From: Viridothelium virens
Taxonomy: Eukaryota > Ascomycota > Dothideomycetes > Trypetheliales > Trypetheliaceae
Length of the DNA: 64,000 nucleotides
Direction: 5' to 3'
NCBI GenBank assembly: GCA_010094025.1
Contig: ML991780.1
Span: forward strand, 310,001 to 374,000
A program made the position numbers and the translations under genes. Positions 969-57,212 of this stretch are shown in pieces (position 1 is the first letter of the stretch; each line of letters opens with the position of its first letter). The notes under the pieces were generated by a model. The model was not told the origin of the DNA. It saw only the letters and a program-made list of their open reading frames with translations, and did no database searches.

Positions 969-1909
969 ATGGATGACTCGAGAATATCAATCACGGTTTG
1001 CGGGGATGGCGGTTGCGGTAAACATGCCTTACAATGCGTCATGAAGCTTCTAATAGCTGATTGCGGCTCCTCTCTTTAGGAAAGTCGTCAATCACATTAC
1101 GACTTGTCCGAAGTCAATGGACACATGAGTAAGTTTCAGACTTAGTCACGCCTAATTGAGCTTGCTAAGCAATTCCTACAGATACGATCCAACAATAGGT
1201 ATCATCATTAGTCCCCCATGAATCACCTCACGAGATCCCCATCTAATCCGCTCATCCTCTCCAGAGGATTCCTACTCCGTAACCCGCACCGTCGACGGCC
1301 AAACCTACCACCTCGCCCTCACCGACACAGCCGGGCAAGAAGAATATCGCGGCCTCTGGGCAACCAGCAACCTCAAATCAGACGCCTTCCTTCTCGTCTA
1401 CGACATCACCAACGCCGCCTCCCTCGACGCCCTCGACTACTTCATGCAGATGATTGACATGGAGACGGAGCAACGGCTTGACAGCGGCGGCGTCCCGCCC
1501 GTCAAGATCGTCGCGGGCAACAAGTGCGATCTCCAAGGGGCGCGCCAGCTGAAGAGCCAAACTGGCTTGGAGTGGGCACGGGGGAGGAAGTGTGGATTTA
1601 TGGAGACGAGTGCGAGGGAGATGGTGAACATCGAGGAGACGTTTGCCCGTGAGTAGACTCCTGCTATGGGGGGAATGGTGTTCGAAAAGTTCAGAGGTTT
1701 TCTGACATGATACAGTGCTCGTGAGACGTGTAGTCGAAGCACGGAGGCGGCAAGCTGGGGGCTATACGGAATCGCCGCGGCCGGAAGCGCAGGCGGTCGC
1801 GGGCGCGCCTTCTGCTGAGAAGCCTACGAAGGAGAGTGGAGCGACGAAACCGAAGAATGCGCAAGCGCCTAGGAAGAGGAGCTTCTGGTCTAGACTGAAG
1901 TGCTGGTAA
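969..1909 (+). CDS. Ras-like small GTPase, divergent, five exons
   Basis: Predicted exons 969-1017, 1080-1128, 1182-1198, 1265-1648 and 1716-1909 give 230 residues. All GTPase motifs are present: P-loop GDGGCGKSS (12-20), Ras-type effector loop YDPTIEDSY (34-42), DTAGQE (59-64), NKCD (124-127) and ETSA (152-155). The residues equivalent to Ras Gly12 and Gln61 are kept (G14, Q63), so GTP hydrolysis should work. The third coding exon is only 17 nt and carries the core of the effector loop. The C-terminus is basic (RKR, then SFWSRLKCW) and ends two residues after its start of a would-be lipidation cysteine, so there is no CAAX box. It belongs to the Ras subfamily, but I cannot assign it to fungal Ras1, Ras2, Rsr1 or Rheb. 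Part of the coding region lies in a C-rich to G-rich switch. The start was chosen because it gives the usual short N-terminus before the P-loop. Confidence 0.88.
1290..1650. other. C-to-G skew switch island 1 (Ras-like gene)
   Basis: The + strand is C-rich from about 1290 to 1460 and G-rich from about 1560 to 1650. The switch lies inside exon 4 of the Ras-like gene. This is the mildest of the nine islands. Confidence 0.5.
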
Positions 1910-2447
1910 TCGTTTTATACCCTTGTCGCAAAATCTTGCTTTTCCTTTCCCGTTGTAAATTAATTTAATTGTCCAGTCACTCAGCACAGCTTTGATCGTT
2001 GAGGGCTACTCGCGAAAGATTGGAAAAGGAGTTATGGGAGGCTTGCTGATTGGATGCGGTACGAGGTGAGACGTACGGACTAATTAAGATGAGATGGATG
2101 GTGGCATGCAGACATGTATTATATTAGTGTGTATATTATGACAATGGCTGTGGAAAACTCGTGCGTCATACGGAACGACGTGTTGAAAATTCCTCCCATG
2201 ATAAAAACTTCGTGAGTGTAAACATGACATATCCAATGCGTGCTTCCTTCACCCGGTGTTGTTTTCTAAAAAGCAACAAAGCACGTCATCCAACGGCATG
2301 AAATTCTGACCGCAAAGAATTCGGAAAGAACTCCGGCAGCTTACACTCAAACCCAATCACTTAGTCTCACCATAGGGTATTGACCTGTGCACCACAGTCA
2401 TAGTGCAAACAGGTTTTCGGGAAGAGAGTATGGTCAGATAAGACTCA
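1910..2447. other. Intergenic, Ras-like 3' flank / carrier 5' flank
   Basis: AT-rich spacer between two same-strand genes. It should hold the polyadenylation region of the GTPase gene and the promoter of the carrier gene. I see no convincing core-promoter element or coding sequence. Confidence 0.5.
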
Positions 2448-3752
2448 ATGGAGGAATTAGAAGCCCCGCCGCAAAATACGTCCCAGACGCTCAAGGACCT
2501 AACGTCTGGAGCATGCGGTGGTATCGCACAAGTTCTAATTGGTGAGCCTTTCTCTAAGTACTTATGTACAGTTGGATATCCGGAGCTTCGATAGCCTTAA
2601 AGTATCTTATTCTTGAAACTCTCTTTTCTACTGTCTCAGGATATCTCAGTGTAGTCTCGTACCTTCGAATTTCCGATTCATATCTCAATTGGCTTCATGA
2701 TACTCTAAGTTTCAAATACTAACCGTGTCGCAGGACAGCCATTCGGTAGGTCTGGGCATCTGCAAGGTGTCTCCAATCTCTGACCGGGTTTGGCAGATAT
2801 CGTGAAGGTCCGCCTTCAGACTACAGCCCAATATAAGAGCGCTGCCGACTGCGCCACCCAAATATGGAAGAATGAAGGCCCAATAGCTTTCTATAAAGGC
2901 ACACTCACACCCCTCATCGGAATCGGCGCGTGCGTAAGTATCATCCTCGAAGTTCTCCACTTCTACCCGTACCCACGCTCCCCACACCATACCCAGGTTT
3001 CCCCCTTCCTAACCTTCTCCCTCCCTCTAGGTCTCCATCCAATTCGGCGGCTTCCACTTCGCCCGCCGCGCCTTCGAAACCCGCAACACAAAACACCACC
3101 CCGCCTCTCCCAGCCTCTCGTACACACAATACTACCTCGCCGGCGCCTTTGGCGGCCTCGCCAACAGCGTCATCTCCGGCCCCATCGAGCACGTGCGCAT
3201 CCGGCTGCAAACCCAACCGCACAGCGCAAGTGCGCGCCTGTACTCTGGGCCGGTCGACTGCGTGCGCAAACTCTCCTCACATGCCGGCGTGCTGCGCGGG
3301 CTCTACCGTGGCGAGGCGGTCACGGTGCTGCGCGAGGCGCAGGCGTACGGCGTCTGGTTCCTCGCCTTCGAGTGGCTGATGAATAGCGATGCGGCAAGGA
3401 ACCGGGTGCGTCGCGAGGACGTCCCCACGTGGAAGGTGGCGCTGTATGGGGGCTTGGCTGGGGAGGCGCTGTGGTTGGGGAGTTATCCGTTGGATGTGGT
3501 CAAGAGTAAGATGCAGTGTGATGGGTTTGGGCCGGCGCAGCGGTATGCGAGTATGCGGGATTGTTTTGCGCAGACGTGGAGGGGGGAGGGGATGGCTGGG
3601 TTTTGGAAGGGGATTGGGCCGACGCTCTTGAGGGCGATGCCGGTTAGTGCGGGGACGTTTGCGGTGTAAGTCTGCTTCAGTGCTGTTTTTGCTGGATGTG
3701 AGCTAATCGGAGAAACAGAGCGGAGTTGACGATGAGATGGTTGAACTCTTGA
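2448..3752 (+). CDS. Mitochondrial carrier family (SLC25) protein, YMC-like
   Basis: Predicted exons 2448-2541, 2734-2745, 2797-2933, 3031-3665 and 3719-3752 give 303 residues, the normal size for a six-helix inner-membrane carrier. The three tandem repeats each show the PX[DE]XX[KR] signature: QPFDIVKVRLQ, GPIEHVRIRLQ and YPLDVVKSKMQ. The second exon is only 12 nt, yet it is needed to rebuild the first signature across two introns in matching phase. Repeat sequence and order resemble the YMC1/YMC2/CRC1-like branch (organic acid, glycine-linked or carnitine carriers); the exact substrate cannot be read from the sequence. The 3' half is strongly skewed in composition, C-rich then G-rich. The family is secure; the subfamily is an inference. 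Confidence 0.9.
2990..3665. other. C-to-G skew switch island 2 (carrier gene)
   Basis: The + strand is C-rich from about 2990 to 3330 and then G-rich to about 3665. The switch lies near 3340-3400, inside exon 4 of the carrier gene. Codons go from C-ending to G-ending across it. Confidence 0.6.
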
Positions 3753-4340
3753 ACGAGCGATGTGCTGGGGGGTTTGCTGGGAGGTTTGCTAGAGGTCTCG
3801 CTTCAACAATTGAACCCGTCGATAGCATATTAGTTTTTATTATCATAGAGATCTTTGACAGTACGTCATTATTGGAGTGGGTTCTGCGGTGATGGAACGA
3901 AGTATCATTATAAGCTTTCCTAGGTAAGTAGACAGAGTGAAAGGTCGTAGAACAATTATTGTGACATAGTACTTCAACGACCAATTATTATTTAATATTG
4001 CGACGTTTACAGTATACTGATGGGAGATGTCATAGGGCTACAGAGTAGGATTCTAACGTGCCTCACGCCTCAATTTTTGTTGCGGATGGGAACTGAAATG
4101 TGTAGTGCATTGAAGTGGCCAACCATGGAACGCAGCTCCGCCTAATTCGATCCTCAGAGCGCGACTTCCCTGTATATTTTCCACCTCACAATCAAGGAGC
4201 CCCCCGATTAAATGAACTATTTGAAACATAGCAGAAACTCGAAGCTCACACCTCGTCAAGTGAGAACGTCGACTGAGCGAATTTTTCACTGAAGACCCCC
4301 AGGACGCTCGCGACACATTTAAGTCTGGCGCGGCAGGAGA
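3753..4340. other. Intergenic, carrier 3' flank / helicase 5' flank
   Basis: AT-rich spacer with no supported gene. The right part is the promoter and leader of the DEAH helicase gene. Confidence 0.5.
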
Positions 4341-6931: not shown

Positions 6932-7015
6932 CAGCTCTAACTGCATATAATTCGACTGGGGGTTGCCCCGGTGAAATTCTTCATAAATACTTTTTCTACC
7001 CTGCATGACTCTGAA

Positions 7016-9779
7016 TCACCACATGTAATAGAACCTCATTTCCTTCACCTCGTCTCCTTCCGGCACACTTCTGCAAAACCGATAGGGATCCAAGTCACCG
7101 TCTCCACCCCTTCCACTTTCCTGAATGACTTGCTGTTCTCTCGCGGATTTCCTCCGTCGAAACTCGTCCTCTACTATGTCCCTCCGGCTCTCAAACGCCA
7201 CCACATCGTCCACACCTTCATACTCGTACCGCCTCTGCCACAGCATCTTCCCCCTCCACTTCCACACCAAGCGATCCAGCTTCTCCGCCGCCTCCTCCCC
7301 CTCCACCTCGCTCACCACCTCCAACACCTCTCTAAACCTCAACGTCCCCACCCAATCCCCCTCCTTCAACGGCCTAATAACCGCCGTCCTCACCAACGCC
7401 CTCGACATCCTCGCATCCATACCCACCCCCACCGCCCTCATCTCCCCACACAACCGCTGCACAAACCTCGCCGCAACCAAATGCCTGACATGCTGGCTCC
7501 GCGCAACCGCCTCCGCAACCCGATGCAGCAGCTCCACACGCGCGGGCGTAAACGCGTCCCGACTCTGCGGCACCACCAGCCGCCACAGCAGCGGCGCCTG
7601 CGCGATCCCTTCCTCGGCGACGCGCACGAAGAAGTCGGGTAGTAGCGAGCGCGGATGCACGGTGCGCACAAGCCGGAACAGGTGCAGTGCCTCGATCGGG
7701 TCGTGCGCCGTGTAGTGCGTGATGAGCTGGATGGTGAGCAGGTGCAGGGCGCGGATGCCGTGGTCGCGGTGGATGGCATGCAGGCCGGCGGCGGCGGCGA
7801 TGGGGCGGGTGAAGCGCGGGATGAGGTGGAAAATTTCCGTCATGAGGCGCCGGTAGGAGAGGCCCGTGTGGGCGACCGCGGCAATGAGGTCCATGTAGGG
7901 GGCGATGGAGGTGCAGGGGAGGTTGGGAGGGTGGCGGGAGATGTAGTTGGAGAATTTGGTGGAGATGAGGTGGAAGTATTGTTCGCCAAGGGAGTCGCTG
8001 TTGGTGGGTAGGGTCGCTTGATGGCTGCGCAATGTAGCGTCGAGAGCGGATTCGTGGTGTGGGTTTGGCTTTCTTACGGTGAGGAGCTCGTTGATCTTTG
8101 AGGAATGCCCTTGGTGGCCTAGTCGTCCTCGATACTCATGTAGGTTTACTGGCTCGATTGGGAAGTTGGACTTGCGGAGAGTAGGATCCAGGATTCGTCG
8201 TTTAACCCATGTTTGCATTATCAGGCTTGCGCCCTCGCGGGCATCCAATCGATTCAGGTAGAACGCAAGGGAGACTGGCTTAACGAAAGGTGCAACTAAT
8301 TCCGCAATATCGCGACACCGAGCATCATCGTCAGCAGCGCGAACGAAAGGTGCGGATCGGACTATACAGGACGCCCAAATTCGGAGAGCTGCGGTCCAGT
8401 ATGATCGATCAGGACCACGGGAAGGTTTGGTCTTTAGAATTTCCTCAGTCGTAGCAAAGATTCTGTTGTGCGCTTCCTCATTGGCAAGAGAGTTCAAGAC
8501 ATAGACCACGTGATTGGTTGCCAAGGAGTACTTTCCATTAGGACTGACCACTGTAGCTGAACTCTCAAGTTTCTCTGTCCAGGTCTTTAAGTATTCCTCG
8601 ATCTTATCTGGCTGGAAGTTGGAGGGCATCGGAAAGGCATGTTGCGAAGCCTCCACCATTAGACGTTCTCGAAGTTTTGGAGCCGAAACAATAAGAAAAC
8701 GGCTGTGAGCAACGTGGTCGTAGAATTCGCGAAACGATCGATGATCCAAGGCTTCGGACTCGCTGGAGGCGCATTGAGCCATAGCTTGCCAAAAGACCTT
8801 ATGTAGATAGGCAAGTTTATGATTGGCATGCCTTTTTTTGTTTTGTCTCGTTTGTCCAACTTTCTCTCTCAGTCGTTCGACCTGTCCACAAACTGTACTA
8901 GCCGATGCAAGACTAATTGCTCCTGTTCTCACGAGTTTGATGATCATGCCCAGAAGACCGCTGTAGAGTGTGTTAGACAACTGTTTCTTGCCCAGTATGT
9001 CGAAGAGTAAATCAAGGTTTCGAGCTTCTGAGAGGTTGATACTACGATCAAACATGAAGGGCATGATCGCCTCAACAAAGTGACGTTTTTTCTTCTCATC
9101 ATTTCCAGGAGACGACTGTTCAAATTGCCATACAAGATATTCAAAACCTCTTCGGCTTGCTTCAGGGCTTATTTTGTCGTCTACCCTGAACTCAAGGAGT
9201 TTTGCCCGGAATGTAGCAAATGTGCACGGCCATTCTAGGCTTTCCAAGCTGTGTTGCAGGGAGTCAAGGCTATTGTAGATTGCACTATCTGCGTTCTCTT
9301 CTTGCGTCTCGGTGTTCACACTGTTTAGGTCTTGATCCGTCAAGGGAGGCGGGGGAGGAGGTAGTGGTGACCAAGGAATCTTTAGTTCTTGAGGAAATTT
9401 CTAGTTAGAGTTATATGTGTAGAGTAGATGGTCGATTGTACATACCTGTGGGCTCTGAACGTTCCAATGTCGGATTTGGTGGCTCCCATTTCCAGTGTAA
9501 TTCTGGCTGGTATCCAGCCCCGAAAAGCGCACCAAACTCGCCGGAGGCTGCAATGTGACTCTGAGCTGAGAGTGCCCCCATTCTTCTCTTAGCCTGCCGT
9601 CGCTGGGCTTCCAATGGCCCAGGTACATTGCTGCCATGACGCCTGCAACTCACAGCGAAGATGCGGTTGAAACGGTGGACGGCTTGGGATAGTATATCGT
9701 CCGTAATCCATAAGGGATGGGTTTCTCCAAGAACAAGCGATTTGGCCAGTCCTCGGCAGACATGTACTCGGTGCCGCAT
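7016..9779 (-). CDS. Large helical-repeat (PPR-like) protein, probably mitochondrial
   Basis: Predicted exons (coding order) are 9779-9446 and 9387-7016, joined by a 58-bp intron in matching phase, giving about 901 residues. The N-terminus is rich in arginine and poor in acidic residues, as in a mitochondrial presequence. It is followed by a conserved-looking GSNVPGPLEAQRR segment and then long stretches of amphipathic helices, consistent with a PPR/TPR-like solenoid. Fungal proteins of this build act in organellar RNA expression or respiratory complex assembly, for example CIA84-like factors, but I cannot identify the orthologue. The splice acceptor at 9388 was chosen because it is the one that keeps the frame with the first exon; a nearby CTAG acceptor would break it. 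The last third contains a skew island. The gene is divergent from the MFS gene. Confidence 0.72.
7200..7990. other. C-to-G skew switch island 3 (helical-repeat gene)
   Basis: The + strand is C-rich from about 7200 to 7570 and G-rich from about 7640 to 7990. The gene is on the minus strand, so its own coding strand also reads C-rich and then G-rich toward the 3' end. Confidence 0.65.
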
Positions 9780-10090: not shown

Positions 10091-11787
10091 ATGGAGAACT
10101 CGATATATCAGCAAATCAGTGATGATGAACACGACGAGGATGAGGTCGTCGAGCTTGAAGACGAAGATCCAATCATTGGGAGCCATATCGAAAATGGGTT
10201 GCTTCAAGGGGAGGCTCACCCATCTAATAAGCCTACAGTATGGTGTCTCTTGGCTATCGTTTGACTTTCTGTTCTGCATCACCTAATAAATGATAGGTGC
10301 TCTATTTACTATTCTTTTTTCTCATCAACAGTCTTGCTTTTGGAATCATTGCGGTTCCTCGCATGAATCTTGTCGTTTCTCTCGTATGCAGACATGCCCT
10401 AGAAGGCAATGAAAAGCCAGACAGTCCACCCGTCATTATTGGCGGCTTCAATCCACAATGTCAAAGCGACGAAATCAGTTCACGGACTGCTCTCATTGCC
10501 GCTCGAGGAAACATCATTGTCGGCGTTCTTGCAGCAGTCGTGAGCACCTCCATGGGTCGTCTCAGTGATAGAATTGGCCGAGTCAAAGTCATTGCATTCA
10601 ACACAGTGGGCCTCATCCTCACCGAGGGGACTCTCCTGACGATTGCCACGTTTCCGATGTCACTCGACTATAGATGGCTATATGCAGCCTATGCGATCGA
10701 TGGTGCAAGCGGCTCCTACGCCCTCACCATGGCCATGGCCTCTGCCTATGTCAGCGACTCATGCGCTCCCTCCATCCGCAGCATCCAAATCGGACGTCTA
10801 CATGGTGCAATGTTTATCGGAATTGCCGTCGGTCCATTACTTTCAACACTCATCTCAAAAATCGGAGGAAGCAAACTGCCTCTGCTAGTCTTCTACGTTT
10901 CCCTTGCCATGCGCTTCTTCTCTATCCTTTATCTCCAATTCGTCCCCGAATCACGTCTCACCAAAACCAGCCAGCTCATCGCCGAAGCCAAACCGCGACA
11001 CCTCCTCCGCCTCACCGCTCGCAGCTGCAAGCCACGCCTCAACTTCTCGAAACTCGACCCCCGCGCCTGGATCGCGCATCTCATCCCCTCCTCCGTCCCC
11101 TCGAGCGCCTACCTCCGCCGCAACCTCATCCTCCTCATGCTCATCGACCTCCTCATCTACGCCGGCGTGATGGGCACGATGGAAATCCTGATCCTCTACC
11201 CACAAGTCGTCTTCGCCTGGGGCGCCACCGCAAACAACCTCTTCATGTCGCTCGTGAACCTCTGCCGCGCCGCCGTCTCCACCCTAGGCCTCCCCCTCCT
11301 CGTCTTCCTCTTCCAACGCTCCTCTTTCTCCTCCTCTAAAATCGCTCCTTCCACCACCAGTACCCCGACCACCACCACCACCACCACTACCGTAGACGAA
11401 GCCCACCACCCCCAATCCGGCGCCGACCCCCTCGACAAATCCCTCATCCTCACCTCCCTCCTCATCGACCTCCTCGGCTACCTCGGCTTCGCCCTCGCCC
11501 CCTCCGGCGCGCTGTTCACGCTGTGCGGCGCGCTCGCCGCCTTCGCCGCCACCGGGCTCGCCTCGACGGAAGCCGCCCTGACGAAGCATGTCGATGGCGA
11601 GCGCACGGGCGAGCTGATGGGCGGCTTGGGCTTCTTGCAGGGCTGTGTCCGCGTCGTGGCGCCCAGCGCGGTCAACGTCGTGTATAGCGCGACGGTCAGG
11701 AGGCGCGTGCCGGGCGCGGCGTTTGTGGGCATTGCGGGCGTTTTGGGGGTGGGAGTGGGGTTGATGGGGTGGGTGAGGACGAGGTAG
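10091..11787 (+). CDS. Major facilitator superfamily transporter (TetA/HIAT1-like)
   Basis: Exons 10091-10237 and 10297-11787 give 545 residues. The first exon encodes a cytosolic, strongly acidic N-terminus of about 49 residues (DDEHDEDEVVELEDED). The second starts directly in helix 1. The loop after helix 2 carries GRLSDRIGRVKV, the MFS signature G-x-x-x-D-R-x-G-R between helices 2 and 3. About a dozen hydrophobic segments follow, with a long central loop rich in Ser, Thr and Pro that includes a threonine run. The pattern fits the tetracycline-resistance/HIAT1 branch of MFS proteins in fungi; the substrate is unknown. The 3' half lies in a skew island and the end of the gene is extremely G-rich. 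Intron phase 0, 59 bp. Confidence 0.88.
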
Positions 11788-11890
11788 GGGACGGGGAGGG
11801 GGAGGATGAGGAGAAAGTATGGCTGTTTTTCGGCTTCAAGGAGGGTGGGGATGGGGGAGGGGATGGGGGAGGGTACCATGTAATGGTAGG
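10970..11890. other. C-to-G skew switch island 4 (MFS gene)
   Basis: The + strand is C-rich from about 10970 to 11520 and G-rich from about 11600 to 11890. The G block runs about 100 bp past the stop codon, so coding constraint alone does not explain it. Confidence 0.65.
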
Positions 11891-13345
11891 GGAGGGAAGT
11901 CTTGATGAATTAATGGTAAGATGATTAGCTTGATTTGATAGCGATTTTGGTTCAATTTTGCATTTTCTTTTCCCTCCTTGAGCTCACTGATGTTTCCATG
12001 CATATACTCTTTAGCTATGTTGACGGGAGATGTTGGGTTTGTGAGCCTTTTACCCTTTTAGAGGATGCCAGTGGATCCATGGTATACAATGAGAAATGCT
12101 TATCTCGAATTGTTGTTCGACTTAATTTGGAAGTCAGTCCAGTCTTACGGCTCCTGGATCAAGTTTCCTACCATGCGCATTTTATTGTCTTCTCCGCCGC
12201 TTACTCATGTGACCACTTTCCCCAAGGCAAATGCGATAGATTCAGCGATTGCTCTCGGACTTTATCTCGCGATTTTGAGTTTTGCCGTCCTCTCGTCGTC
12301 CAAGTCGAGTGAATCATCAACATGAATATGAAACAACTCCCAGCTCACCTCGCTTACAAGTCATGGGAGCAATCACACCTCATGAAAATCAAGGTTCGGT
12401 CACCTGAATTTTAAGCGACATCTTCAGATCTTCGACGTTGATTCGATAATCCCCAGTCGCCTTGTAGGCTACGGTATGCCTGCCTGTCTGCCTGTTCAAG
12501 CCCCGTGCCCCAGTTCGTTTCACATCTCTAGAGCCCAAGGATGAACCTAGCGAACGCGGGGATGTGCATGAACATCGCCTCATGAACTGCGCTGTGGGGC
12601 ATTGTGCTTCCCTCTGATACGTTTTCACATTGAAAGCTGTCCGAGTCTGTTTGGTGCATATGATTCGATAGTTCGCATTCATGTGAGTTTCAGATCTAGC
12701 TACACTACCTACGACACAACACGTATGCGCCCCATCCCTTCCTCCTTGAGCCCACCCTAATCAAATCCAAGACCTGCTGAAAGCTTGTCCACCCAGCAGC
12801 CTTGTCACTATTCCCGTGTAACAACCACACGGACAGTCAGTCGAGAACCTTCGAAACACAACGCCAGCCGCCATCTGTTATTGTTGGGAGTGCAGTAGTA
12901 TTTGTCCAAACAGATCCGGCAATGTCTTCCGACTACCACCTAGAAACATCGACAAGGACCTCCATATAAAGAGAAAATAGAGCAAAGAAAAGTCCATAAA
13001 GTCTAAAGTACAATGGTATAGTATAGAAGGGAAATATGCTCGCTTTTTCAAACCAAGCCTGTCGATTGGACAGGAGGTCGAGGGAGTGTGGGAGAGAGAT
13101 GGATTCGTCGTGCGGACGTCGCTGATGGCAATCGAAGATGATTGACAGCGCGGTGGGAGGAGCGAAAAAGGAGCGTGTGTCGTCCAGTATCCTCTATGCG
13201 CCATGTACCAGACCGTAACCCAATTCTGATTGAGACGCCTGATCCAGGGATGAGGGAACAGAACGGGCCTCGAAGGAAGTTTGAATAAATAAACATGAAA
13301 GTCGTATGCGTATGCAAGGGTCGTGGCAGCAGGAAGCCGTAACAA
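11788..13345. other. Intergenic between convergent MFS and WSC genes
   Basis: About 1.56 kb between two convergent genes, so both 3' UTRs lie here. The first 100 bp are very G-rich and then the sequence becomes AT-rich. The open frames present are short, overlapping and unlike any family I know. Confidence 0.5.
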
Positions 13346-24153: not shown

Positions 24154-24162
24154 TACGGAGTA
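24154..24162 (+). repeat. TACGGAGTA motif copy
   Basis: Exact nonamer in the shared upstream region of the zinc-finger and F-box genes. Confidence 0.6.
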
Positions 24163-35899: not shown

Positions 35900-36187
35900 G
35901 GGTTTGGTGACAGGGCAGAGGCTCGCAAGGTGTCGTAGATGTAGCACCGGCGACAAAAAAAAAAGCTCTGGGCAATTGGTAGCGATGCGACACAAGCGTG
36001 AAACGGCACGGCGTCGGGTTGACGCAGGGTCTAGTTATCGATAAGCCTATTATCTCTCATCACCAATCAGAAACGGGTGTTTTACTGCTGCGCCGACACC
36101 GGTGTCACCGGCGGGATGAACAATTGCATTCATGCCTCCATCTAGAAATTTTCTTCCACCTACTGAATCTTACATCTGCAGGGAAAT
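35900..36187. promoter_or_regulatory. Divergent promoter region UTP22 / cystathionine gamma-synthase
   Basis: Only 288 bp separate the two starts. It contains a CCAAT box at 36063-36067 and a perfect 12-bp palindrome GACACCGGTGTC at 36095-36106 embedded in a longer imperfect CG-rich dyad. Either could serve both genes. No clear sulfur-regulator (Cys3/MetR) site was seen. Confidence 0.55.
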
Positions 36188-39826: not shown

Positions 39827-41394
39827 ATGAACTTCATCGTGAGTCTCGCTAATTTTCCGTCTACGATTCAAGGTGGGGGAGGCGGCAACGGTATCGCCAG
39901 GCAGCATCGTTCGCTTGTGCAAAGGCCGCACCCTCTATCACCATTAGCCCTACAAGTGGAAGTCATTTACAAGGCTGACTCGATTCTCTTGCGCTTGATT
40001 AGTTCTCTCTCGCCCATTTTTGCGAATACCACGGCCCGACCTCCATTCTGTGCACCCAGATCCAACCCGTCACATGCTCGACCTGTGACCCTCCCCCGGA
40101 TACGCCTCGATCATCCCGCTCGACTCCGTCCCCTCCGCAACGAGAATGGACCCCTTCTCTGGCCAGTGGGCGAGTCTTGAATACTGCCATCGAAACCCCT
40201 CCGACAAGCCCAGCGACAGCTAGCAGTCGAGATAATCCATACTTCCCCTCCTCTAGGAGCAGTCTAGAATCATACAGACGATACAGTGGGAGCTTTGAGT
40301 CCAAAGATGACACGTGCGCAAACTGCACATTCAATCTACCAGGGGACGTCAACCGGAGGCTGCCGGATGGCATGCCAGGGAGTCCCACCAAAGATGGGAA
40401 AGGCCGGCATGGAAGCCCTGTTCTACGGACCAGCGAAGGCCTCGTAGTTCCCGGCTGTGCTCTCAACACCGAAGACGAGTTCGACGACAGCAGCAGCCCC
40501 GAACTCGGCAGCACCACCGAATCCTCCGACACCGAACAACCGAAACCCCCCAAACCCCCGAAATCCACCACTTCCACCACCGCCGCCACCACCCTCCGCA
40601 TCCCCTCCACCCTCGCCCGCTCCCACACCACCGCCTCCTCCTCCTCCACCTCCTCCTCCTCCGCCCTCTACACCACCCGCCAACACACCCACCGCCACAC
40701 CATCGACTACGTCACCACGCGACAGCCCCCGTCCCCCACCGCATACACCCTCCTCCGCCGCTCCTGCATCAACACGCTGTCAGTGGAGAACCTACCGCGC
40801 GGCGCCTCGGCGGGCTTTCTCTTCTTCGGCGACGTCCACAAGGGCTACACGCTCGCCTACGTCTTCCGCGTGCCGGACCCGCGCGCCCGCGGCCGCCTGC
40901 GCACCTACGCCCTCCTCATGCTCGGCGGCCACGACGGCTGGCGCACTACCCTCGCTTACCGCGTCGTCACGCGCGCCTTCGAGAGCATGGCGGAGAAGAT
41001 CGTCCGCATGGCGAATGAGGTCATCATGCGCGAGTTTAGCGAGAGCGCGCAGGCGCAGGGGGCGCGCTCGCAGGGTGGCTCGTCCCCGGAGATGCCGTAT
41101 TCGGGGCCTCCGCCGCCGTCGAGGGGGAGTCTGGGGGGTGGGGCGATGGGAGGAGCAGCCGGAGGTGCGGACTCGGCGTATGGAGGGAGCGTGGTGAGTA
41201 ATCGGAGTATCACGCCCGTGTCAAGCTTTCTGGTCGCGAAGAAGGTTGATCCGGATGGCTATCCCCGCGTATCGAGCGAGGCGATGAGTGCGAAGAGTTT
41301 GGCGGAGATTGTCGGGGATGAGAATATCTTCTTGGAGTTGCATGGTGCGTTTGTGAAACTCCTGGCGAGTTTGACTCGGGAGTTTGGATTATGA
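39827..41394 (+). CDS. LST7: Folliculin / Lst7-family protein
   Basis: Exons 39827-39838 and 40003-41394 give 467 residues. The first coding exon is only 12 nt (MNFI); splicing over 164 bp restores FSLAHFCEYHGPTSILCTQ, the diagnostic start of folliculin/Lst7. CSTC and CANC cysteine pairs follow, then a disordered Pro/Ser/Thr-rich segment, then the longin-domain blocks RHTIDYVTTRQPPSPTAYTLL, ASAGFLFFGDVHKGYTLAYVF and ARGRLRTYALLMLGGHDGW. The C-terminal block is PDGYPR ... AKSLAEIVGDENIFLELHGAFVKLL. With Lst4/FNIP, Lst7 acts as a GAP for Rag GTPases at the vacuole in TORC1 amino-acid signalling. I see only the longin part, not the C-terminal DENN region of animal folliculin. Codons shift from C-rich to G-rich in the middle. 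Confidence 0.87.
40470..41190. other. C-to-G skew switch island 7 (LST7)
   Basis: The + strand line 40561-40620 has 37 C and 5 G; the line 41101-41160 has 32 G and 15 C. The switch is near 41000. Confidence 0.75.
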
Positions 41395-42995
41395 CAGATA
41401 TTGATGGGGGGATTCATGAATAATACGTGATGGTCCTGAAAAGGTGACGCCATGGACGGCGTGGACGCGGTGCTTGCTGTACCGCTTTTCTCCCAATTTT
41501 ACGGGAGAGCATCGTATTTCGGTGGATTATTCGTGGGCTCGTCATTTTCATGTTTCGTACTGGGTTCATGCTCTCTTGTTTTACCGGCTGTACTATTATG
41601 TTGGCGCGTGTCTTGCTGCGTTCTAGCGATTCATTCCAACTGTGGTTCTTTCGCGGCGCGAGTTTGCGTCCTCTTACTTTCTGCTTCTCACTTCGCTTCA
41701 CGGCTTACTTTCTTCGAGTGATACCCCTTGCTTGCTTCTCAGAGCGGCTCAATTGCTTTGAAATCACTAGAGATTTGTTTCAACTGCATGTTCTATGCTA
41801 TCATCACATGGTCGTCCCATACGATAAGTATATAGATGTTCGTAGGGGACGCGGATGCTAGAGAGGAAAGATAGGTATTGAATATTAAGACAGTCGATGT
41901 TACACACATACTATCCTTGAATTTTTCTGAGAAGCGTACCTAGATTATCAGCTACTAGGAGAGTCGTGCAAGAGAATTAGAGACGAATCCCAAAATGATC
42001 AAGACTAAAAGCACAAACCCGTTTACGCGGAGCAACCACTCTTTTCGCAAGCCTGGCTTGCTAAATGTCCATTTGCTACGGATTTAAGGGATACAGGTAT
42101 AAGATGCGTGGTTTTGTTGATGTCTTGATGAAATGGTTCCTAAACACGTCGACAAACCCCTCAGTCTTCCTGCAACACAAGCCTCAGCAGTCTGATGCTG
42201 GTGGGCCATTGACGATGTCGATACTGATAACGTCACAGGTTCATTCTATCCTTGATCGTGGCTGGAAGTTGTTGTCAGAAACGCAGGATATTTATTCCTG
42301 GCCTTTCGGCAAGGCAGGGAACAATTACTGGTGGAAGCATCCACTTGAGGTTATATGGCGGGCTTCATTAATAGAATCTCGGACTGTTTGGCAAGAATCG
42401 ACGATGAGAAAGTCGAGCGATTTGGGCTATTCTTGGTGGATATTGTGTTCACCAATGTGTCCCGAGGGACTTTGCTGATCATCCAGACATGAATGGAAAA
42501 ACTCATGAGTAATCGAGTACAATTCACATGAGAAAAAGCTGTATGATGGACTTTCCACTTGTTGTTTTTCAATTCGCTCAAGATGGCCTGTGTGCTCATT
42601 CATCGCGTCCCTGATTGCTACCACTCAGAGCCGAGACATAACAAGCTTAACTCTAATGCCCGATTCAAGCCGTAATTTCTAATCTGTGTATCCTTCGAGT
42701 GAATGTACTTGTTCTGCTTGGAGCGGAATCGTGGAGCCAAGAACGTCCATACAGAACGTGGTGATACATAGTGAGAAACGGTGACCGTCAGAATACCGTA
42801 CAGATAGCGCACTCACAGACACATGGGTCCTCTATCCAAAGTTTCTTCCAGAACGTCTGCAAAAACAAGGATAATCCATGCAATTCACTAAGTTGGGAAT
42901 CCGAGAGGGACCCTTTCCGAGACGGGCTTCTATTATTCTGTGATCCAAGGCACATCCATAGTACTCTTAGCTTTTCTGGTTGATGTCCATTTTTC
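41395..42995. other. Intergenic between convergent LST7 and arrestin-like genes
   Basis: 1.6 kb, AT-rich in its second half, holding both 3' ends. Open frames on both strands are short or lack any domain or codon signature. No repeat family recognised. Confidence 0.5.
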
Positions 42996-44285: not shown

Positions 44286-44835
44286 GTTCTGAAGTCTTCT
44301 CTCGGGAAAGCGGTGTTGAAGCATCAGGAAACGTGCTCCTGTCAAGGCCCCGTCAGGGTAAGAGGCGTGAGGTGCTGAAGCACGACACAGCCTCGACAAC
44401 CAACGGCAGGCACTGGCCCAAATCCCCAAGCCATGATCAAGTGACACGCGCCTCAGCTGAAAAGCGCACAGTCATAGATGCAGTGGCCTCTACCGTAGCG
44501 AAAGGTAAGACGGTGCTTCTCTTCGGTAGTGTTCCGACAGAGATAGGATACTCCGTTGCGAATTTGACGTCATCTGACCGCGAAAGCATCCATGAAATCG
44601 AAGGTGTGATGCGTAACACTACTCTGCAAATTAATACAGAGAATTGCCAGGCCATGCATTTGAGCGTGATAGTATTGATGATATCAAGAAGAAAATTCAC
44701 TGAGATCAATTAAATGCATGGTCTCTTCGTCATTCTTGTGCAATCACGGCTTACTTTCAACCAGAGTAAAATTGAAGGGAACGAGGAGAACGACGAGGAA
44801 CCGCTGAACGAGAGACGTAATGTTTCTGTGAATCT
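44286..44835. other. Intergenic, arrestin 5' flank / decarboxylase 3' flank
   Basis: 550 bp between two minus-strand genes. The part nearest the arrestin gene is open in the arrestin frame up to 44447 and could be 5' coding sequence if the longer start is used. No separate gene is visible. Confidence 0.5.
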
Positions 44836-46827
44836 CTACGTCTCTACAACGTCTCTCCACACTTTCTCGCCTTCCTCCTCTATAGCTTTTACCAATCCCT
44901 CCACAGTACCTCGCCTTGTCTCAGAATTCACTACTACTCTCAAGAACAACCCCTTTTCTCCCGGTGCATAGTCAATCATGAATCCCCCCCTCATCAACCT
45001 TCGACATATATCTGAAGTTACCTTACTCATCTTCTTCTTCCCCTCGTTGCCTTCCACTAATGTCCCCTTCTTGGCGTAATAAAAGCAGACCTGTAGACAT
45101 GGCGGCGGCTGTTCGCTGATCAAAGTCATATCTGAATGCTCCTGCACAAGCTTCGCAAGATACGCCGTAGTGTCGTATGCTCGTTCAACCATTGCTGCAT
45201 ACCCAGTACGGCCATAATACAGCCATCCCAGAAACATCTTCAGCGCTTCGCCTTTTCGGCCACACTGGGGCGTCAGCTCGGCCAAATCCCAAACCTCCCG
45301 CCCATCTTGCAATCCCTTCCCAGCTTTCTCCCCTTCCGCTTCCTCCTGCTCCACCACATTTCCCCCATCCTCATCCCCATGAAACAGATACCCAGCACTC
45401 ACCTGATTCGCCTTATGCAACACCCGCACATCCCTCACCAGCAAAAACGAGCACGTCAGCGAAACCCCCAACATCTTATGCGGGTTCACCGCCACACTAT
45501 CCGCCCTCTCCACCCCCTTCAGCTTCTCCTCCTTCAACCTCTCCGAAAACACCACTCCACCCCCCCAACTCGCATCGACATGCAACCACAACCCCTCCCT
45601 CGCACACACCTCCGCAATCCCCTCCACCTCATCAAACGACCCCATCACCGTCGTCCCCGCCGTCGCACACACAAAAAACGGCAACTCCCCCTCTTCCCTC
45701 GCCGCCTGCACCGCCTTCGCCAGCGCCGCCCCTGTCATTCGTCCCCCCGCATCAACAGGCACAGCGCGCACCGCGCCGTCACCGAGGCCTAGCAGGGACG
45801 CCGCCTTCGAGGTGGAGTAGTGCGCATGCGCGCTCGCGAACACGACGGGGCGCTTCGTGGCCCCGCCCTCGCCTGTGCCTTGCATGATGGTGCCGACGCC
45901 GGAGGACTTGCTGGACGGGAAGTGCGTGTTCCGCGCGGTGAGGAGGGCGAGGAGGTTGGAGGCGGAGCCGCCGGGTTGGGAGATGCCGCCGGCGTGTGGG
46001 TTCGAGGTGGGGTTGGCGGGGTGCGGGTGGGGAGGGTTGGTGGTGGAGGTGGTGGAGGCGGAGGGGGCGCGGTGCAGGCCGAAGAGCTGGGCGAGGTGGC
46101 GGGTGGTGTGTTTCTCGATGAGGGTGAGGGCGGGGGAGACGGAGTAGACGTGGACGTTGGTGTTGAGGGTTGCGAGGAGGAGTTCGGAGATGAGGCCGAT
46201 CTGGGAGGATGGTTAGGAAGGGAAGGGGTTGAGGGGGTTTGGGTTGCATGATTAGGGACGGGGAGATTGGGAGTTGGAGAGTTGATGGTGAGGTATTGGT
46301 GGAAGGGATGAGGTGAGGGAAAGGGGATTATACATACAGCATTGTTTCCGTGGTACAATTTATCCATGAACCCCTGATCCCAAGTGTTGACTGAATACTG
46401 AAGGATCTGCTTGGCCATCGCCATTACACCTTCCTTCCCCTTGCCCTCGTCCGGTAATTCAAGATCCATCAGGCTCTGCAGCTTCTGCGGTGGATGGTGC
46501 TCTACAAGTGTAGTCCGTGGAGCACCACCAGAGACGACAGTGCCATGTCCAGAAGGTTTAGAATTGGCATCTGCATCGGCGGCTTTAACAAATGGGACGA
46601 TGAGGTCTTGGATTGAACGCAGCAACTAGGTCTGATATGTGAGAAAATTGAGAAAGGCAAACTTTTAAAATTGGTGTAATCGCTTCGGCCAATATGCAGA
46701 TTATGTACACTTTTGATGAATGAAAAAATAATAGACTTACGTCAGCAACCTCATCTGCGCGAGCAAGAGGAGGTTCGTCTTCATTGCTTGACGTAGCAGG
46801 ACGAGAGGGTATCTTCGAATTAGACAT
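44836..46827 (-). CDS. Group II PLP-dependent decarboxylase (glutamate / cysteine-sulfinate decarboxylase-like)
   Basis: Predicted exons (coding order) are 46827-46741, 46625-46338 and 46200-44836, all phase 0, giving 579 residues. Landmarks: LYHGNNA near the substrate-binding start, NVHVYSVSPALTLIEKHTTRHLAQL, GGSASNLLALLTAR, HVDASWGG (332-339, with the PLP-pairing aspartate) and the Schiff-base lysine in NPHKMLG (K367). The family decarboxylates an amino acid such as glutamate, aspartate or cysteine sulfinate. Sequence feel is closer to the GAD65/CSAD branch than to bacterial GadB, but the substrate cannot be fixed. Exon 3 contains a strong skew island that yields a Pro/His/Thr-rich insertion near residues 165-185. 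The two introns are longer than usual here (115 and 137 bp). Confidence 0.87.
45290..46290. other. C-to-G skew switch island 8 (decarboxylase gene)
   Basis: The + strand line 45541-45600 has 32 C and 4 G; the line 46021-46080 has 39 G and 7 C. The switch is near 45780-45820. The G block extends across the exon/intron border into intron 2, so it is not only a codon-usage effect. Confidence 0.8.
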
Positions 46828-49216: not shown

Positions 49217-49826
49217 CGTGACTGATTTGGTGAATGTGGGGAATTTCGGGCATACGGAGAAAAATATAACGTAATGATGAAGAGAATTTTTCAACGCTGA
49301 GACTGTTCGCAGATTATGCAGATGCCGTCTAGTGAGTGTAGAAGGGGCCCTGGAGGTTCCTACAGTTCTCGTGCAGTGTCCGGGAGTGTGTCGGGGATAG
49401 GGTGGTAGAGTCGGCAGGGGAGAGGTGGGTTTGCGTATGTGGAGCCGGAGCGATTTAGAGGAAGGACTCGACGTCACGCAAGATCGGAGGATCCAGATCG
49501 TGGCAAGCAAAACCAGATCGTACCATTGCTAGGCCGCATCGACCGCCCGCTTAGCGGTGGCGTGAGATCTCAGCGGCAGCCTCCACTCTAGCTCGATTTC
49601 CTGTACCGAGCCGTACCCTATTTCAGCCAAGATCGCTCCCTACCGAGGAGCCGCTGCACGCACTGCCAACGTCTCTTAACTAGATGTGCTAACTAACCTG
49701 CTAATCCCAAGAGTCGCTCTTTGCCCGACACGTCTGCCGGCAACTTCCAATTCTCGTACTAGCCGCTCATTGAGTCGGCATATTGAGCCAAAGTGTGTCT
49801 ACACCCCATTGGGCTCACCTGGGCTC
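49217..49826. promoter_or_regulatory. Divergent promoter region NOP9 / RINT1-like gene
   Basis: 610 bp between divergent starts. A direct repeat CCAGATCGT occurs at about 49492 and 49511. An upstream ATG in frame with the RINT1-like gene lies at 49686. No clear core-promoter element. Confidence 0.4.
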
Positions 49827-52723: not shown

Positions 52724-53535
52724 AAGACTGCGCTACGGGTCTAGATGGTGGACACATGCGAAATGTTTAGTAGTTGCAATGGAAAACATTTGGTACAGCG
52801 CGAGGAGTATAGTATGTTCTTAGAGGCTCGTCTCACTTGTCCGTCCGTTTCGTGCCTTGTCAATGCGTTTTCATTCTACAACAAACGAACGTATAAGTAC
52901 CATTAGTTTGAGTTGTCCTTACATGAAGCAAGATTGTTTTTGTGGTAAACCCAACTAGAACTGACGGTACTTGATCCGTCAGGCTGATCCAGAGTTTAGG
53001 ATCAGCCCCTATCATCAACACCAACGTAACTATATTGTATATTCATTTCGAATCTTCAAAAGAAGGTCAGGGCCGTTAGAAGAACTGATCTGGAGGGACA
53101 TGCTAGTGCATGTTCGAGCGTTTTCGAATTAATTGTCAAATCCAGGCAGTTCGCTATGCATGTTCTGAGGTGCGAGGCATGATCGACGCTGCATGAGCCA
53201 CACTTACCACTGGACTTGAAGACTTTCTGTGGCTGACATTTGTGGCTGAGGATATGACCACCGAGAGTAATGCTCACAAAAACTAAGCTACGTAACGTAC
53301 CTTCTGAACATGGGCTATAAGAACGTGTGTTGTGTTTCGGTGAAAGAGGAAGTAGCTCACGTGTTTGCTCAACGTGCAAACAGGATGCGCTAATAGATTA
53401 ATAGGTAGAGTAAGGTATGTACCTTAGTGCTCCCCACGCACAGACCAGTGCGCGTCGGTCCAGAGTCGCGTCTGTAATAAGTAGGAAGGTCACTCCACCA
53501 GGTACGGCAACGAGTTCGTCAGAGCTTCGCTCAAC
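52724..53535. other. Intergenic, RINT1-like 3' flank / SMC6 5' flank
   Basis: 812 bp without a supported gene. It contains the inverted repeat TAAGGTA-TG-TACCTTA at 53411-53426, about 110 bp upstream of the SMC6 start codon. Confidence 0.5.
53411..53426. promoter_or_regulatory. Perfect inverted repeat upstream of SMC6
   Basis: Seven-bp arms TAAGGTA and TACCTTA separated by TG. Its position about 110 bp before the start suggests a protein-binding dyad, but this is inference. Related TACCTTA elements lie at 25481 and 29027. Confidence 0.4.
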
Positions 53536-56500
53536 ATGGTGCCGGTCCCGCAGCGAAGGAGTCGCGCTGAGACAGAGGATTCTCAAATTGTCTCAGTTGA
53601 GAGTGCGACGTCAGGTCTCCGCCAAAAATCTGTACGTAACCGTCTCTATGAACTGCTCTATCTCTGTACCTGACAAGATACAGGCGAAACGGCGTCGCCT
53701 GTCTACATTGAGTCCTGGACTAGACTCGGAATCCGAATTCGGTCGAGAGAGCCGGGACGTCACCGTCTATGAAGACGAACCCTTTGAACCCCAAGACTAT
53801 GACACTCGACGCGATGCTAGGCTGGACGAAGAAACACAGCATCAAGAGAAAGATGATTTCAGATCAACACAGCTCGTACGGCAACATTTCGACGAAGCCA
53901 AAGAAAATAAGCCAGCCGAGAATGGTATCATTGAGCAAGTTGTCTGTCACAATTTCATGTGCCATAAGAAACTAGTAGTGAATCTCGGCCCGCTGATCAA
54001 CTTTATTATTGGACACAACGGGAGTGGCAAGAGTGCGGTGCTTACTGCTTTGACCATTTGTCTAGGTGGAAAGGCGACTTCCACCAATCGTGGCCAAAAT
54101 CTAAAAGCCTTCATCAAGGAAGGCGAAGAGTACGTGCATTGCACCAAACAGCTAGAGCAGCACTAATGGCGATAGCTCCTGTATGCTATCGGTGAAACTG
54201 AAGAATCATGGCGACACAGGTTACAGACCTGAATTATATGGCAATTCTATCCTCATCGAACGCCACTTCTCCCGAAGTGGAACATCTGGGTTCAAGATTA
54301 AGAACGACAGCGGGCGAGTCATCTCAACAAAACGCTATGACCTGGACGAAATTTCCGACCACTTTGCGCTTCAACTTGACAATCCTATGAATGTCCTGAC
54401 ACAAGATATGGCTCGTCAATTCCTGAACAATTCATCAGCTGCCGACAAGTACAGATTTTTCGTGAAGGGCACGCAACTGGAACAGTTGGATAATGACTAT
54501 CATATGATTGAACAATACGCCGATGCCATTGAAGGTCGGATTAGCACCAGACAGGAATCAATCAGTATCCTCGAGCAACGTTACAAGCAAGCGGACAACA
54601 AGCGAAAGATTGCCGAGAAGAATGAAACACTGAATGATAAAATCAGAGAACTCCGCAGACAATTCGCCTGGGCACAAGTAGAGGAGCAAGAACGGATACT
54701 CGATTCAATGAAGGATAGGATTGATAACGCAGATGAAAAGATTGAGCAGAGGACGAGCGAGGCCGAGTCCTACGCTCAAGCCTTAGAATCTGCAGAACAG
54801 AACTTGCAGCGAGCCGAAAACACAGTTATAGATCTCAAAAATGACCTACAACCACATGAAGATCATCACGCTGAACTCAGCAAACAGTTTAGCGCCAATA
54901 AGGAGAAGCTGATCCAACAACAGGTAAGGGCTTGAAAAATGCAAAAGCTTTGCGATGCTGATTCATCTCTAGACGCAACAACGCAATATCAACACGTCCT
55001 TGAGAGCAAGCAATTCAGCCATTGAAAAGGCCGAAGAGAGCATCCAAGAAGAAAAGAGAAGACTGGAAGATCAAAACGGTGGCGAACATGCTCGAAAACT
55101 TGACGAGATACAGAAAGCCAAGGAGCGCGCGGCCGTCCTCAAGATTGAATTTGAAGCTCACTCTGCTGAACGTGCTAATTTAGATCGTAGCAAAGGTGAC
55201 GCCCAGCGGGAAGCTTCTGAAGCTCGACCAGCACTTACTGAAAAGGCACAGGCTCTGCAAAACGCCGAAAAGATCCTGCAGAATTTGAATGACAACCGGG
55301 GCCAACAGAATGGTGCCTATCATCCGAAGACGTCAATTCTACTCAGGGCTATACAGGCCGAGACAAGATTCCGTGACCGCCCAGTTGGACCTCTTGGCCA
55401 GCATATACGATTGAAACCATCCAAGACAGAATGGAGCTCCATTATTGAAAGAACTCTTGGTAATAACCTATCAGCATTTGTAGTTACAAACAAAGCCGAT
55501 CAGAGTCTGCTCGACGAGATTAGCAAAAGAGTGAACTGTCCTTGCTCTGTCTTTATTGGAGATGGCCAGCCTCTAGATATCTCAAGATCACAACCCGACT
55601 CGCAGTATGATACAATCTTGAGGGTACTTGAGATTAAGAGTGATCTCGTCCGCAATCAATTGATCATCAACAATGCAATAGAGCAAACTGTGCTCATCAA
55701 GGATCAGACGGATGCTTACAATTTTATCAATAATAATCCAGAAGGCCGTCCACGGAACACAAAGGCATGTTTGGCTTTTCATCCTACGCAGCGGGGTCAT
55801 GGTCTGCGTTTTACAGCATCTGCAACGTCTTCGAAAATGGATCCAGTGCCGGCCTGGACACAGGGCAGTCGTTTGCAAACCGACACTGAGGCTCAGAAGA
55901 GGTACGTCCAGTGGTGCAAACACCGCATTGATCCGACTGACGAATTTTTTGTAGAAATCAAGAAGCTCTTGTGCAGCATCTTCAAAGTGAACTCCAGCAG
56001 CTCCGAAGCAAGAGTCAGGCGCTTGAAAGCGCTCTGACTACCGCGGTTAGTAATATCGATCAGCATGAGAAGCGCAAGAAGGAACTGCAACTCCAGCAAC
56101 AGAGGGCCGAGGAGGATGCAGAGCGACTTCGCGACGAACTTGACGAAGAAACACCGCAAGATGGGAAGCTAGACGAGCTGCAATCTCAACTAGAAAATTC
56201 CCGAGCAGAATCTCAGCAGTTCTCGACCGATTACGAAAATGCCATCATCGAGAAGGACAAGCTCAACCAAGACCAGACGGCGCTCAAGAGGCAATGCGAG
56301 GAGGCCAAAGCCACAGTGAACGAGTACAGGACCAAAATCGACAAAGCCGAGGCCAAGCTGCAGAAGCTCGTCGAGCACCGCACCACCGCCCTCCACGAGA
56401 AGAACTCCGCCTTCGAACGCATCCAAGACGCGCGAGACGAAAAGCAGCAACTCGAGCAGAACTGCGCGCAGCAAGAAGCCAAAGTCGACAACTTCGACGG

Positions 56501-57212
56501 CCAAGCCAGCCAGATCTCCGCGCGCGTGCCCGTGCCCCCCAACGTCAGCCCAGACGACCTCGATCGGCGCCTTTCGAAGCTGATGAAGGACCTGGACGCG
56601 TACCGGGCGCAGCAGGGGGGCTCGCTCGAGGACCTGACGAACGCGACGACGGCGGCGAAGAAGCAGTGGCGGACGGCGCAGCGGGAGCTCGACGGCTTCC
56701 TCGCCACGGCGGATCAGCTCAAGCGGTCGATGTTTCAGCGGCGGAACCGCTGGATGGATTTCCGCCGGTTCATCTCGAGTCGGGCGAGGGCGAACTTCAC
56801 GTATCTCCTCAGTGAGCGCGCGTTTCGCGGGAACTTGAAGCTGGATCATAAGAGTAAGTTGTTGGATCTGAGTGTCGAGCCGGATATTACGAGGGCATCG
56901 GATCGGGGGAGGCAGACGAAGACGCTGTCGGGCGGGGAGAAGTCATTCTCGACGATTTGTTTGCTGCTGTCGATTTGGGAGGCGATGGGGTCGCCGATTC
57001 GCTGTCTGGATGAGTTCGATGTGTTTATGGATAATGTGAATCGGGATGTCAGCATGAAGATGATGATCAATGCGGCGAGGAGGAGTGTTGGCAGGCAGTT
57101 TGTCCTGATCACGCCGCAGGCGATGGGGAATGTGGATAGTGCAGAGGATGTGAGAATCCATAAGATGAGGGATCCGGAGAGAGGGCAGACTACTATTTCG
57201 TTTGGGAATTGA
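53536..57212 (+). CDS. SMC6: SMC6, SMC5/6 complex ATPase
   Basis: Exons 53536-53631, 53678-54129, 54176-54923, 54973-55901 and 55955-57212 give 1160 residues, the usual size. The N-terminal Smc6 block is IIEQVVCHNFMCHKKL with Walker A GHNGSGKS (144-151). Long coiled coils follow on either side of a hinge (GPLGQHIRLKPSKTEWSSII ... CPCSVFIGDG). The C-terminal ABC signature is LSGGEKS (1066-1072) and Walker B is LDEFDVFMD (around 1093-1101). Smc6 with Smc5 and the Nse subunits acts in homologous recombination, replication-fork stability and rDNA maintenance. Introns 1 and 2 are only 46 bp. The start gives a short disordered N-terminus; an upstream in-frame extension is possible only if intron 1 is absent. 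The last exon contains a skew island. Confidence 0.93.
56390..57200. other. C-to-G skew switch island 9 (SMC6)
   Basis: The line 56521-56580 has 27 C and 16 G; the line 56881-56940 has 28 G and 11 C; the line 57121-57180 has 24 G and 6 C. The switch is near 56580. The G block covers the highly conserved ATPase C-terminus, where the protein is not low-complexity. Confidence 0.7.

Follow-up and report, generated by a model that had tools for sequence, protein, structure and literature searches.

Strand asymmetry was analyzed in a 64,000-nucleotide stretch of the Viridothelium virens genome (assembly GCA_010094025.1, contig ML991780.1, positions 310,001 to 374,000), hereafter the window, and all data reported here come from it. 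Nineteen genes were modelled, with poor coverage between 18.5 and 25.8 kb; gene names and starts, like some of the introns, were read from open reading frames (ORFs), Pfam matches and splice signals. Nine of these genes, five on the + strand and four on the - strand, carry an island in which a C-rich block of the + strand is followed by a G-rich block. Islands were delimited with a three-state, strand-symmetric hidden Markov model (HMM) that had equal rates for the C-to-G and G-to-C directions, and the boundary between the two blocks is called the centre.

Island 1 (1213-1881; C block 1213-1448, G block 1449-1881) lies in a + strand gene for a Ras-family GTPase (coding sequence, CDS, 969-1909; Pfam Ras, E 3e-27) and Island 2 (2900-3795; C block 2900-3285, G block 3286-3795) in a + strand mitochondrial carrier gene at about 2448-3752 (Mito_carr, E 4e-40). 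Island 3 (7034-8086; C block 7034-7627, G block 7628-8086), defined by the HMM, falls in a - strand gene without an assigned family, whose ORF (7016-9343) had no Pfam match at E 0.001. An MFS transporter gene on the + strand (stop at 11787; MFS_1, E 2e-15) contains Island 4 (10901-11899; C block 10901-11582, G block 11583-11899), and a GTP-binding protein gene on the - strand (15510-18437; GTP_EFTU, E 9e-7) contains Island 5 (15515-16554; C block 15515-16166, G block 16167-16554). Island 6 (32416-33629; C block 32416-33013, G block 33014-33629) is in a - strand Utp22/Nrap gene (32249-35995) with six Nrap domains; the protein's best solved match is the Utp22 structure 6rxv, from Chaetomium thermophilum, over residues 205-1259, a span that covers the island. 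Together with short introns and the gene content, this match suggests a filamentous ascomycete chromosome. Island 7 (40497-41472; C block 40497-40980, G block 40981-41472) lies in a + strand folliculin/Lst7 gene (stop at 41394; Folliculin, E 2e-41) and Island 8 (44834-46326; C block 44834-45808, G block 45809-46326) in a - strand pyridoxal-dependent decarboxylase gene at about 44836-46827 (Pyridoxal_deC, E 3e-74). Island 9, the weakest (56376-57185; C block 56376-56575, G block 56576-57185), is in a + strand SMC-type gene (stop at 57212) whose SMC_N match (E 7e-10) scored 39.2 bits, below the cut-off of 40; to judge from its sequence, this gene is probably SMC6.

Detection and orientation of the islands

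The C-to-G flip islands are real. The HMM returned 21 non-background blocks, made up of nine adjacent C-then-G pairs, no G-then-C pair and three lone blocks, and the orientation on the + strand was C-then-G in all nine pairs (two-sided sign test, p = 0.004). The centres (1448, 3285, 7627, 11582, 16166, 33013, 40980, 45808, and 56575) fall at the same nine places that had been marked in a first-pass annotation of this DNA, and the base counts made by hand in that annotation were exact at all six positions quoted. Flip scores computed with 300-bp arms were 122-214 at eight centres, and the extremes in 20 first-order Markov simulations of the window were +75 and -86, which rules out a chance origin. 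The ninth centre, at 56.6 kb, was weaker in raw bases and lacked an extreme 60-mer, yet its island was detected by the HMM and at fourfold degenerate sites (C 18 and G 4 of 24 sites at -300 to -100 bp; C 5 and G 32 of 42 at +300 to +600 bp). Extreme 60-mers, with 27 or more of one base and 9 or fewer of the other, were scored on a 60-base grid and 49 of 53 fell inside the nine islands, which cover 9150 bp.

The strict orientation depended on scale. Weaker C-to-G peaks in the 300-bp flip score were found at 12967 (85), 37959 (80), and 52382 (100); the simulated range includes the scores of the first two. This one-number score also yielded G-to-C peaks of up to 149, the larger of them mostly at the outer edges of islands. 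When opposite skew of at least 0.25 was required on both sides, C-to-G flips outnumbered G-to-C flips by 9 to 2 with 300-bp arms, 13 to 7 with 200-bp arms and 14 to 12 with 150-bp arms, and the two strongest G-to-C flips with 150-bp arms were junctions of convergent stop codons (6962 and 32219). The earlier statement that the + strand never changes from G to C therefore holds for islands as the HMM sees them and fails with short arms, where the two directions are nearly equal in number. The three lone blocks (C 39661-39761, C 40005-40253, and G 49332-49465) lie near the 5' ends of the Lst7 (+) and Nop9 (-) genes.

A shared repeat or mobile element was rejected as the source of the islands: blastn at E 1e-3 among the nine islands, with 700 bp on each side, yielded a 68-bp match inside the MFS island and, between islands, two short matches of 22 and 25 bp. 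ARAGORN found no tRNA and there was no Rfam match at the gathering score. Scans of viral contigs (with the Nrap, carrier and SMC genes) and of genome contigs (with the carrier gene) returned no relatives.

Base composition and mirror symmetry of the arms

Fourfold sites showed the flip. At 150-300 bp left of the centres their C/G/A/T frequencies were 0.75/0.07/0.09/0.09, at the same distance to the right G reached 0.70, and far from the centres each base stood at 0.22-0.26 (this profile used rounded centres, e.g., 3307, 16100, and 56600, in place of the HMM boundaries). Further left of the centres, the four bins between -1200 and -600 bp still had fourfold skews of -0.13 to -0.59, so the DNA around the islands is not fully neutral. 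In coding DNA, third-position skew was -0.66 within C blocks and +0.57 within G blocks, compared to -0.02 outside them, and the first and second codon positions moved in the same direction. Twofold sites at 150-300 bp had a C/(C+T) of 0.95 and a G/(G+A) of 0.30 on the left and of 0.25 and 0.93, respectively, on the right, compared to a far background of 0.47 for both ratios. The favoured transitions are thus A-to-G and C-to-T, on the + strand in the right arm and on the - strand in the left arm.

Noncoding DNA within the islands shared the asymmetry. Five introns were placed in islands, at 1199-1264 and 1649-1715 in Island 1 (skew -0.58 and +0.42), at 2934-3030 and 3666-3718 in Island 2 (-0.66 and +0.33), and at 46201-46337 in Island 8 (coding-strand C 0.49 and G 0.04; -0.86). 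Each had the skew sign of its own arm, and the skew of eleven introns outside islands ranged from -0.24 to +0.20. The 150 bases past the stop codon of the MFS gene (11788-11937) contained 70 G, 9 C, 36 A, and 35 T and did not differ in skew from fourfold coding sites at 200-300 bp (51/7 vs. 86/13; Fisher p = 1), although this is a single gene and the stretch is possibly an intron or coding in another frame, one frame being open for about 130 bp past the stop. Since island introns are skewed too, protein composition alone cannot explain the skew, and as a sole cause it is ruled out by the fourfold sites, the twofold sites and the introns together. Island noncoding DNA as sampled here combined strong skew with hardly any gain in GC; coding synonymous sites showed both.

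Selection on codons, protein composition or mRNA structure would account for a rise in GC that is clear at coding sites and not in island introns, and for the fall of the skew at the stop codon described below. Native RNA was also about 2.4-2.5 standard deviations more stable than 25 within-block synonymous shuffles in two of the five genes tested, the decarboxylase gene and the gene at 7.6 kb. Such selection is nevertheless very unlikely as the cause, given that island introns and the MFS 3' noncoding stretch share the skew and that, with genes pooled, every one of the eight fourfold boxes favoured third-position C in C blocks and third-position G in G blocks. The remaining three of the five genes had no structural excess, and selection for mRNA hairpins was rejected on this mixed result.

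Low-complexity residues were about five times denser in island-encoded protein (347 of 2825 residues) than outside (158 of 7108, a count that leaves out the large ORF at 59852-63985). Examples within islands are the runs encoded at 11317-11416, 15788-15896, 32902-32962, 40513-40693, 41068-41197, and 45993-46068. The Utp22 run close to the centre of Island 6 lies within a 19-residue gap of the aligned 6rxv chain. The excess is compatible with a mutable site, and skewed base composition alone also raises it.

The two arms were mirror images as far as the data could tell. Comparison of the upstream arm with the reverse-complemented downstream arm, at fourfold sites in coding orientation, gave no detectable difference in any of seven distance bins (p 0.12-0.85), which bears out the dyad symmetry proposed earlier. 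A GC term and a strand term were then fitted at fourfold and twofold sites in six bins to 900 bp, folding both sides together and thus assuming symmetry. From the centre outward the GC term was 1.86, 1.58, 1.12, 0.56, 0.42, and 0.02, with its maximum at the centre, and the strand term was 0.30, 0.70, 1.17, 1.19, 0.60, and 0.26, with its maximum 150-450 bp off centre. Out to 600 bp (five bins), both terms together gave a better fit than either by itself; in the 600-900 bp bin, a model with just the strand term did equally well. Arithmetic on the fit put the strand term of island introns at about 0.87. Symmetric GC-biased gene conversion (gBGC) alone was rejected (log-likelihood -684.7 vs. -497.4 with the strand term at 150-300 bp); a symmetric GC bias is insufficient because C/(C+T) and G/(G+A) at twofold sites move in opposite directions on each side. 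Mirrored arms, with a GC term that is highest at the centre of coding sites and a strand term that is highest off centre, suit a process that runs both ways from the centre.

Replication from a fixed start, with the leading strand gaining G on each side, would give the correct sign and dyad symmetry, and a replication start was one of the two bidirectional processes offered in the first-pass annotation. We consider origins highly improbable: there would be nine in 64 kb, all of them intragenic and in the 3' half of a gene, and the strand term is already down to 0.26 at 600-900 bp, where an origin should leave kilobase-long skew.

Position of the islands relative to genes

The islands are tied to genes. 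Each of the nine centres is in the 3' half of its gene, at 0.51-0.88 of gene length with two at 0.51 (some gene starts are approximate) and 205-972 bp upstream of the stop codon. Relative to the stop, the downstream edges of Islands 1-9 fall at -28, +43, -18, +112, -5, -167, +78, +2, and -27 bp. Their mean distance from the stop is 53 bp, and none of 200,000 random placements, with island midpoints assumed uniform within the gene span, came as close, although HMM edges may be drawn toward the stop because genes in general are G-skewed over their final 100 bp. At the other end of the island, 244-2962 bp separate the start codon from the upstream edge. Islands had been described as independent of gene direction, a claim that does not survive nine of nine centres in the 3' half and nine of nine downstream edges within 167 bp of the stop. 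Their occurrence in genes of both strands is no evidence against a gene link, because a C-to-G flip is its own complement.

The last 100 bp of the CDS had a G skew of +0.50 in island genes and +0.29 in the ten other modelled genes, and in island genes the skew fell to +0.11 at the stop codon. None of these ten genes had an HMM island. The contrast between genes with and without an island is incomplete, because the weak flips at 37959 and 52382 lie near the 3' ends of two of the ten. At both convergent gene pairs (6931/7016 and 32164/32249), where the stops are 85 bp apart, one gene has an island and its partner has none, and a small G-to-C flip is present at both junctions.

Pooled fourfold skew more than 1000 bp upstream of the centres was -0.07 in island genes, compared to -0.10 in other genes; the exception was the MFS gene, with -0.67 (51 sites). 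At 800-1000 bp upstream, the pooled value was -0.30. The first 300 bp had more C than G in six of the nine island genes (G 53-84, C 60-99) and more G than C in the 7.6-kb, MFS and Nrap genes, most strongly in Nrap (84 to 60), some starts being approximate. The 300 bp before the start codon had more C than G in eight of nine island genes, most of all in Lst7 (106 to 58). The C excess in both of these intervals was weaker than in the C blocks.

A general skew of fungal genes has been described. McLean and Tirosh (2011; PMC3315797) reported opposite GC skews at the 5' and 3' ends of fungal genes, with a significant change along 33% of Candida albicans genes, and the available text of that paper proposes two causes for the average trend without deciding between them. 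The islands could be an extreme and patchy form of it, produced by phase-specific transcription-coupled mutation or repair without bidirectional initiation. As in the available account (PMC3315797), the coding strand goes from C to G toward the stop in nine of nine islands, fourfold and nondegenerate sites are both affected, the G bias is strongest near the stop, and the effect is present at fourfold sites and outside the CDS, while C is in mild excess ahead of most island-gene starts. The islands thus agree with it in direction, in their position toward the stop and in the effect at fourfold sites. The G skew of +0.29 at the ends of non-island genes, the C excess before eight of nine island-gene starts, the weak 3' flips in two non-island genes and the drop in skew at the stop all fit such a trend, as do the lone blocks, in which the coding strand is C-rich at what we read as the 5' ends of Lst7 and Nop9.

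The islands depart from that description in several respects. What the available text of PMC3315797 reports is mostly a gene average, whereas the window has local islands of about 1 kb with fourfold C of 0.75 followed by G of 0.70 and a GC peak at the flip. The C bias there is strongest at the promoter or gene start in most species, and here the strong C block is internal. Both the amplitude and the symmetry of the islands go beyond the fungal gene skew as described in the part of PMC3315797 available to us. A 5'-to-3' gradient has neither arms that mirror each other nor a GC maximum at the flip point, and the strong skew is local, although the MFS gene and the pooled value at 800-1000 bp stand apart. 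We regard a patchy form of the general trend as fairly unlikely.

Divergent transcription from a cryptic intragenic promoter would also run both ways from a centre. The non-template strand, + on the right and - on the left, would more often be single-stranded and would gain A-to-G and C-to-T changes, and the sense product would end at the gene's own terminator, which explains why all nine downstream edges are near a stop. If divergence from the centre is assumed, the sign and the twofold transition pattern match those of the vertebrate non-template strand in the available text of PMC2927911. That text describes A-to-G and C-to-T changes on this strand at CpG-island promoters, an A-to-G bias that changes direction upstream of genes, and, in all examined mammals but dog, a GC maximum at the start site of CpG-island genes, so the islands resemble these promoters in their GC peak as well. 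The promoters are at gene starts, unlike the islands, which are intragenic and near 3' ends, and the gene starts tested in the window have no such flip. Ordinary promoters should produce the same flip, yet C exceeds G in the first 300 bp of six of nine island genes, and beyond 1000 bp upstream of the centre the bodies of island genes should be positive in skew and are not (-0.07, pooled). The strong fourfold preference for G requires transversions as well as transitions. To our knowledge, the amplitude of the islands also exceeds known transcription skews, and this too counts against divergent transcription, which we judge to be unlikely.

Biased repair of double-strand breaks as a candidate process

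The reading that we favour, at a probability of roughly 0.38, is that the islands are recombination hotspots at which programmed (meiotic) double-strand breaks are repaired with a GC bias and a strand bias. The meiotic break with biased repair suggested in the first-pass annotation is kept as the leading guess for a bidirectional process at the centre, and the replication start named beside it is set aside for its density, intragenic 3' location and short range. An island would be the long-term compositional scar of a DNA process that recurs in roughly half of the genes, starts in a narrow zone, perhaps 100-150 bp wide, at 0.2-1 kb before the stop codon, and extends about 0.5 kb in each direction. 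That process may be the repair of programmed, meiotic double-strand breaks. Break repair resynthesises the + strand to the right of the break and the - strand to the left. Close to the break, conversion would be biased toward G:C and away from A:T; at greater distance, repair would act strand-specifically and enrich G, and to a small degree T, on the resynthesised strand, leaving C on the left and G on the right. One speculative rule with this outcome is that mismatches containing G are converted to the donor and those lacking G (C:C and A:C) mostly are not.

Known systems offer partial parallels. Conversion decays exponentially on both sides of a break, according to the available text of PMC3020949, and the islands resemble gBGC around meiotic breaks, as described there, in a local GC rise at coding sites that decays from a point. 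They differ in that gBGC is strand-symmetric, whereas C and G here move in opposite directions on each side and introns have no clear GC rise. Recombination hotspots of the fungus Zymoseptoria tritici lie inside genes, 1435 of 2578 in exons and 132 in introns (PMC5844332, available portion). Human meiotic-break mutation, in the portion of PMC7615360 at hand, shares with the islands a mirrored, strand-polar pattern, a symmetric core of about 100 bp on each side and maxima off centre; it differs in being a matter of mutation counts instead of base composition and in having flanks of about 2 kb.

Several observations weigh against break repair. As we read the available text of PMC7615360, the human signature (C>N and A>N on the forward strand left of the break) would deplete C on the left, the opposite sign to the islands, in which C is gained there. 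Conversion that favours GC should raise GC everywhere, yet the five island introns had no clear GC rise (folded A 0.23, C 0.08, G 0.44, and T 0.25) and the MFS stretch past the stop is 53% GC; this noncoding sample, five introns and one 3' flank, lies at least 180 bp from a centre throughout. Tract lengths do not predict that islands end near stop codons, and they do so even at the two junctions where the stop of a convergent gene is 85 bp away (6931/7016 and 32164/32249). DNA past the stop was less skewed than fourfold sites at the same distance at 300-400 bp (G/C 26/11 vs. 90/10, p 0.007), at 400-500 bp (78/47 vs. 42/8, p 0.006) and at 800-1000 bp (p 0.027); between 500 and 800 bp, none of the three bins reached significance across the nine genes. 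Skew past the stop was clear in the MFS gene and weak in the rest. The edge position correlated with distance from the centre at r -0.63 (p 0.067) for all nine islands and significantly only without the decarboxylase island (r -0.87, p 0.005); the alignment to the stop may therefore be partly a matter of reach.

A more specific proposal, which we hold to be doubtful, is that the centres are recurrent break zones near gene 3' ends, that the arms record the resynthesised strand through strand-asymmetric biased gene conversion, and that the average C-to-G skew of fungal genes is largely the sum of such islands. At least in this genome, separate islands in roughly every second gene could supply most of the average skew. 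Fungal genes with discrete C-to-G islands were not described among the literature matches listed, which were covered by titles and abstract openings, with preprints and most subscription papers outside their scope. A gerbil study (PMC7403616) was dropped as a precedent, the 'GC skew' in its available text being a W-to-S bias.

The islands possibly mark a local two-way DNA process such as recombination. A published average trend of fungal genes appears here as sharp, local and mirror-symmetric islands with measurable centres, so that a gradient becomes a set of coordinates that can be compared with maps of recombination, transcription and replication. If recombination is the cause, one sequenced genome could reveal both break zones and the polarity of repair. 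Whatever the cause, codon usage and protein composition are distorted locally by the islands, and codon-based and phylogenetic analyses could be misled.

Two further composition patterns were recorded. Nine G-quadruplex motifs were found in the window, six on the + strand in G blocks and three on the - strand in C blocks, a strand pattern that composition alone would give. AT skew on the + strand rises to +0.49 at 54500-56500, over the SMC-type gene and probably its coiled coil, and falls to -0.34 at 59850-64000, over a large minus-strand ORF without a Pfam match.

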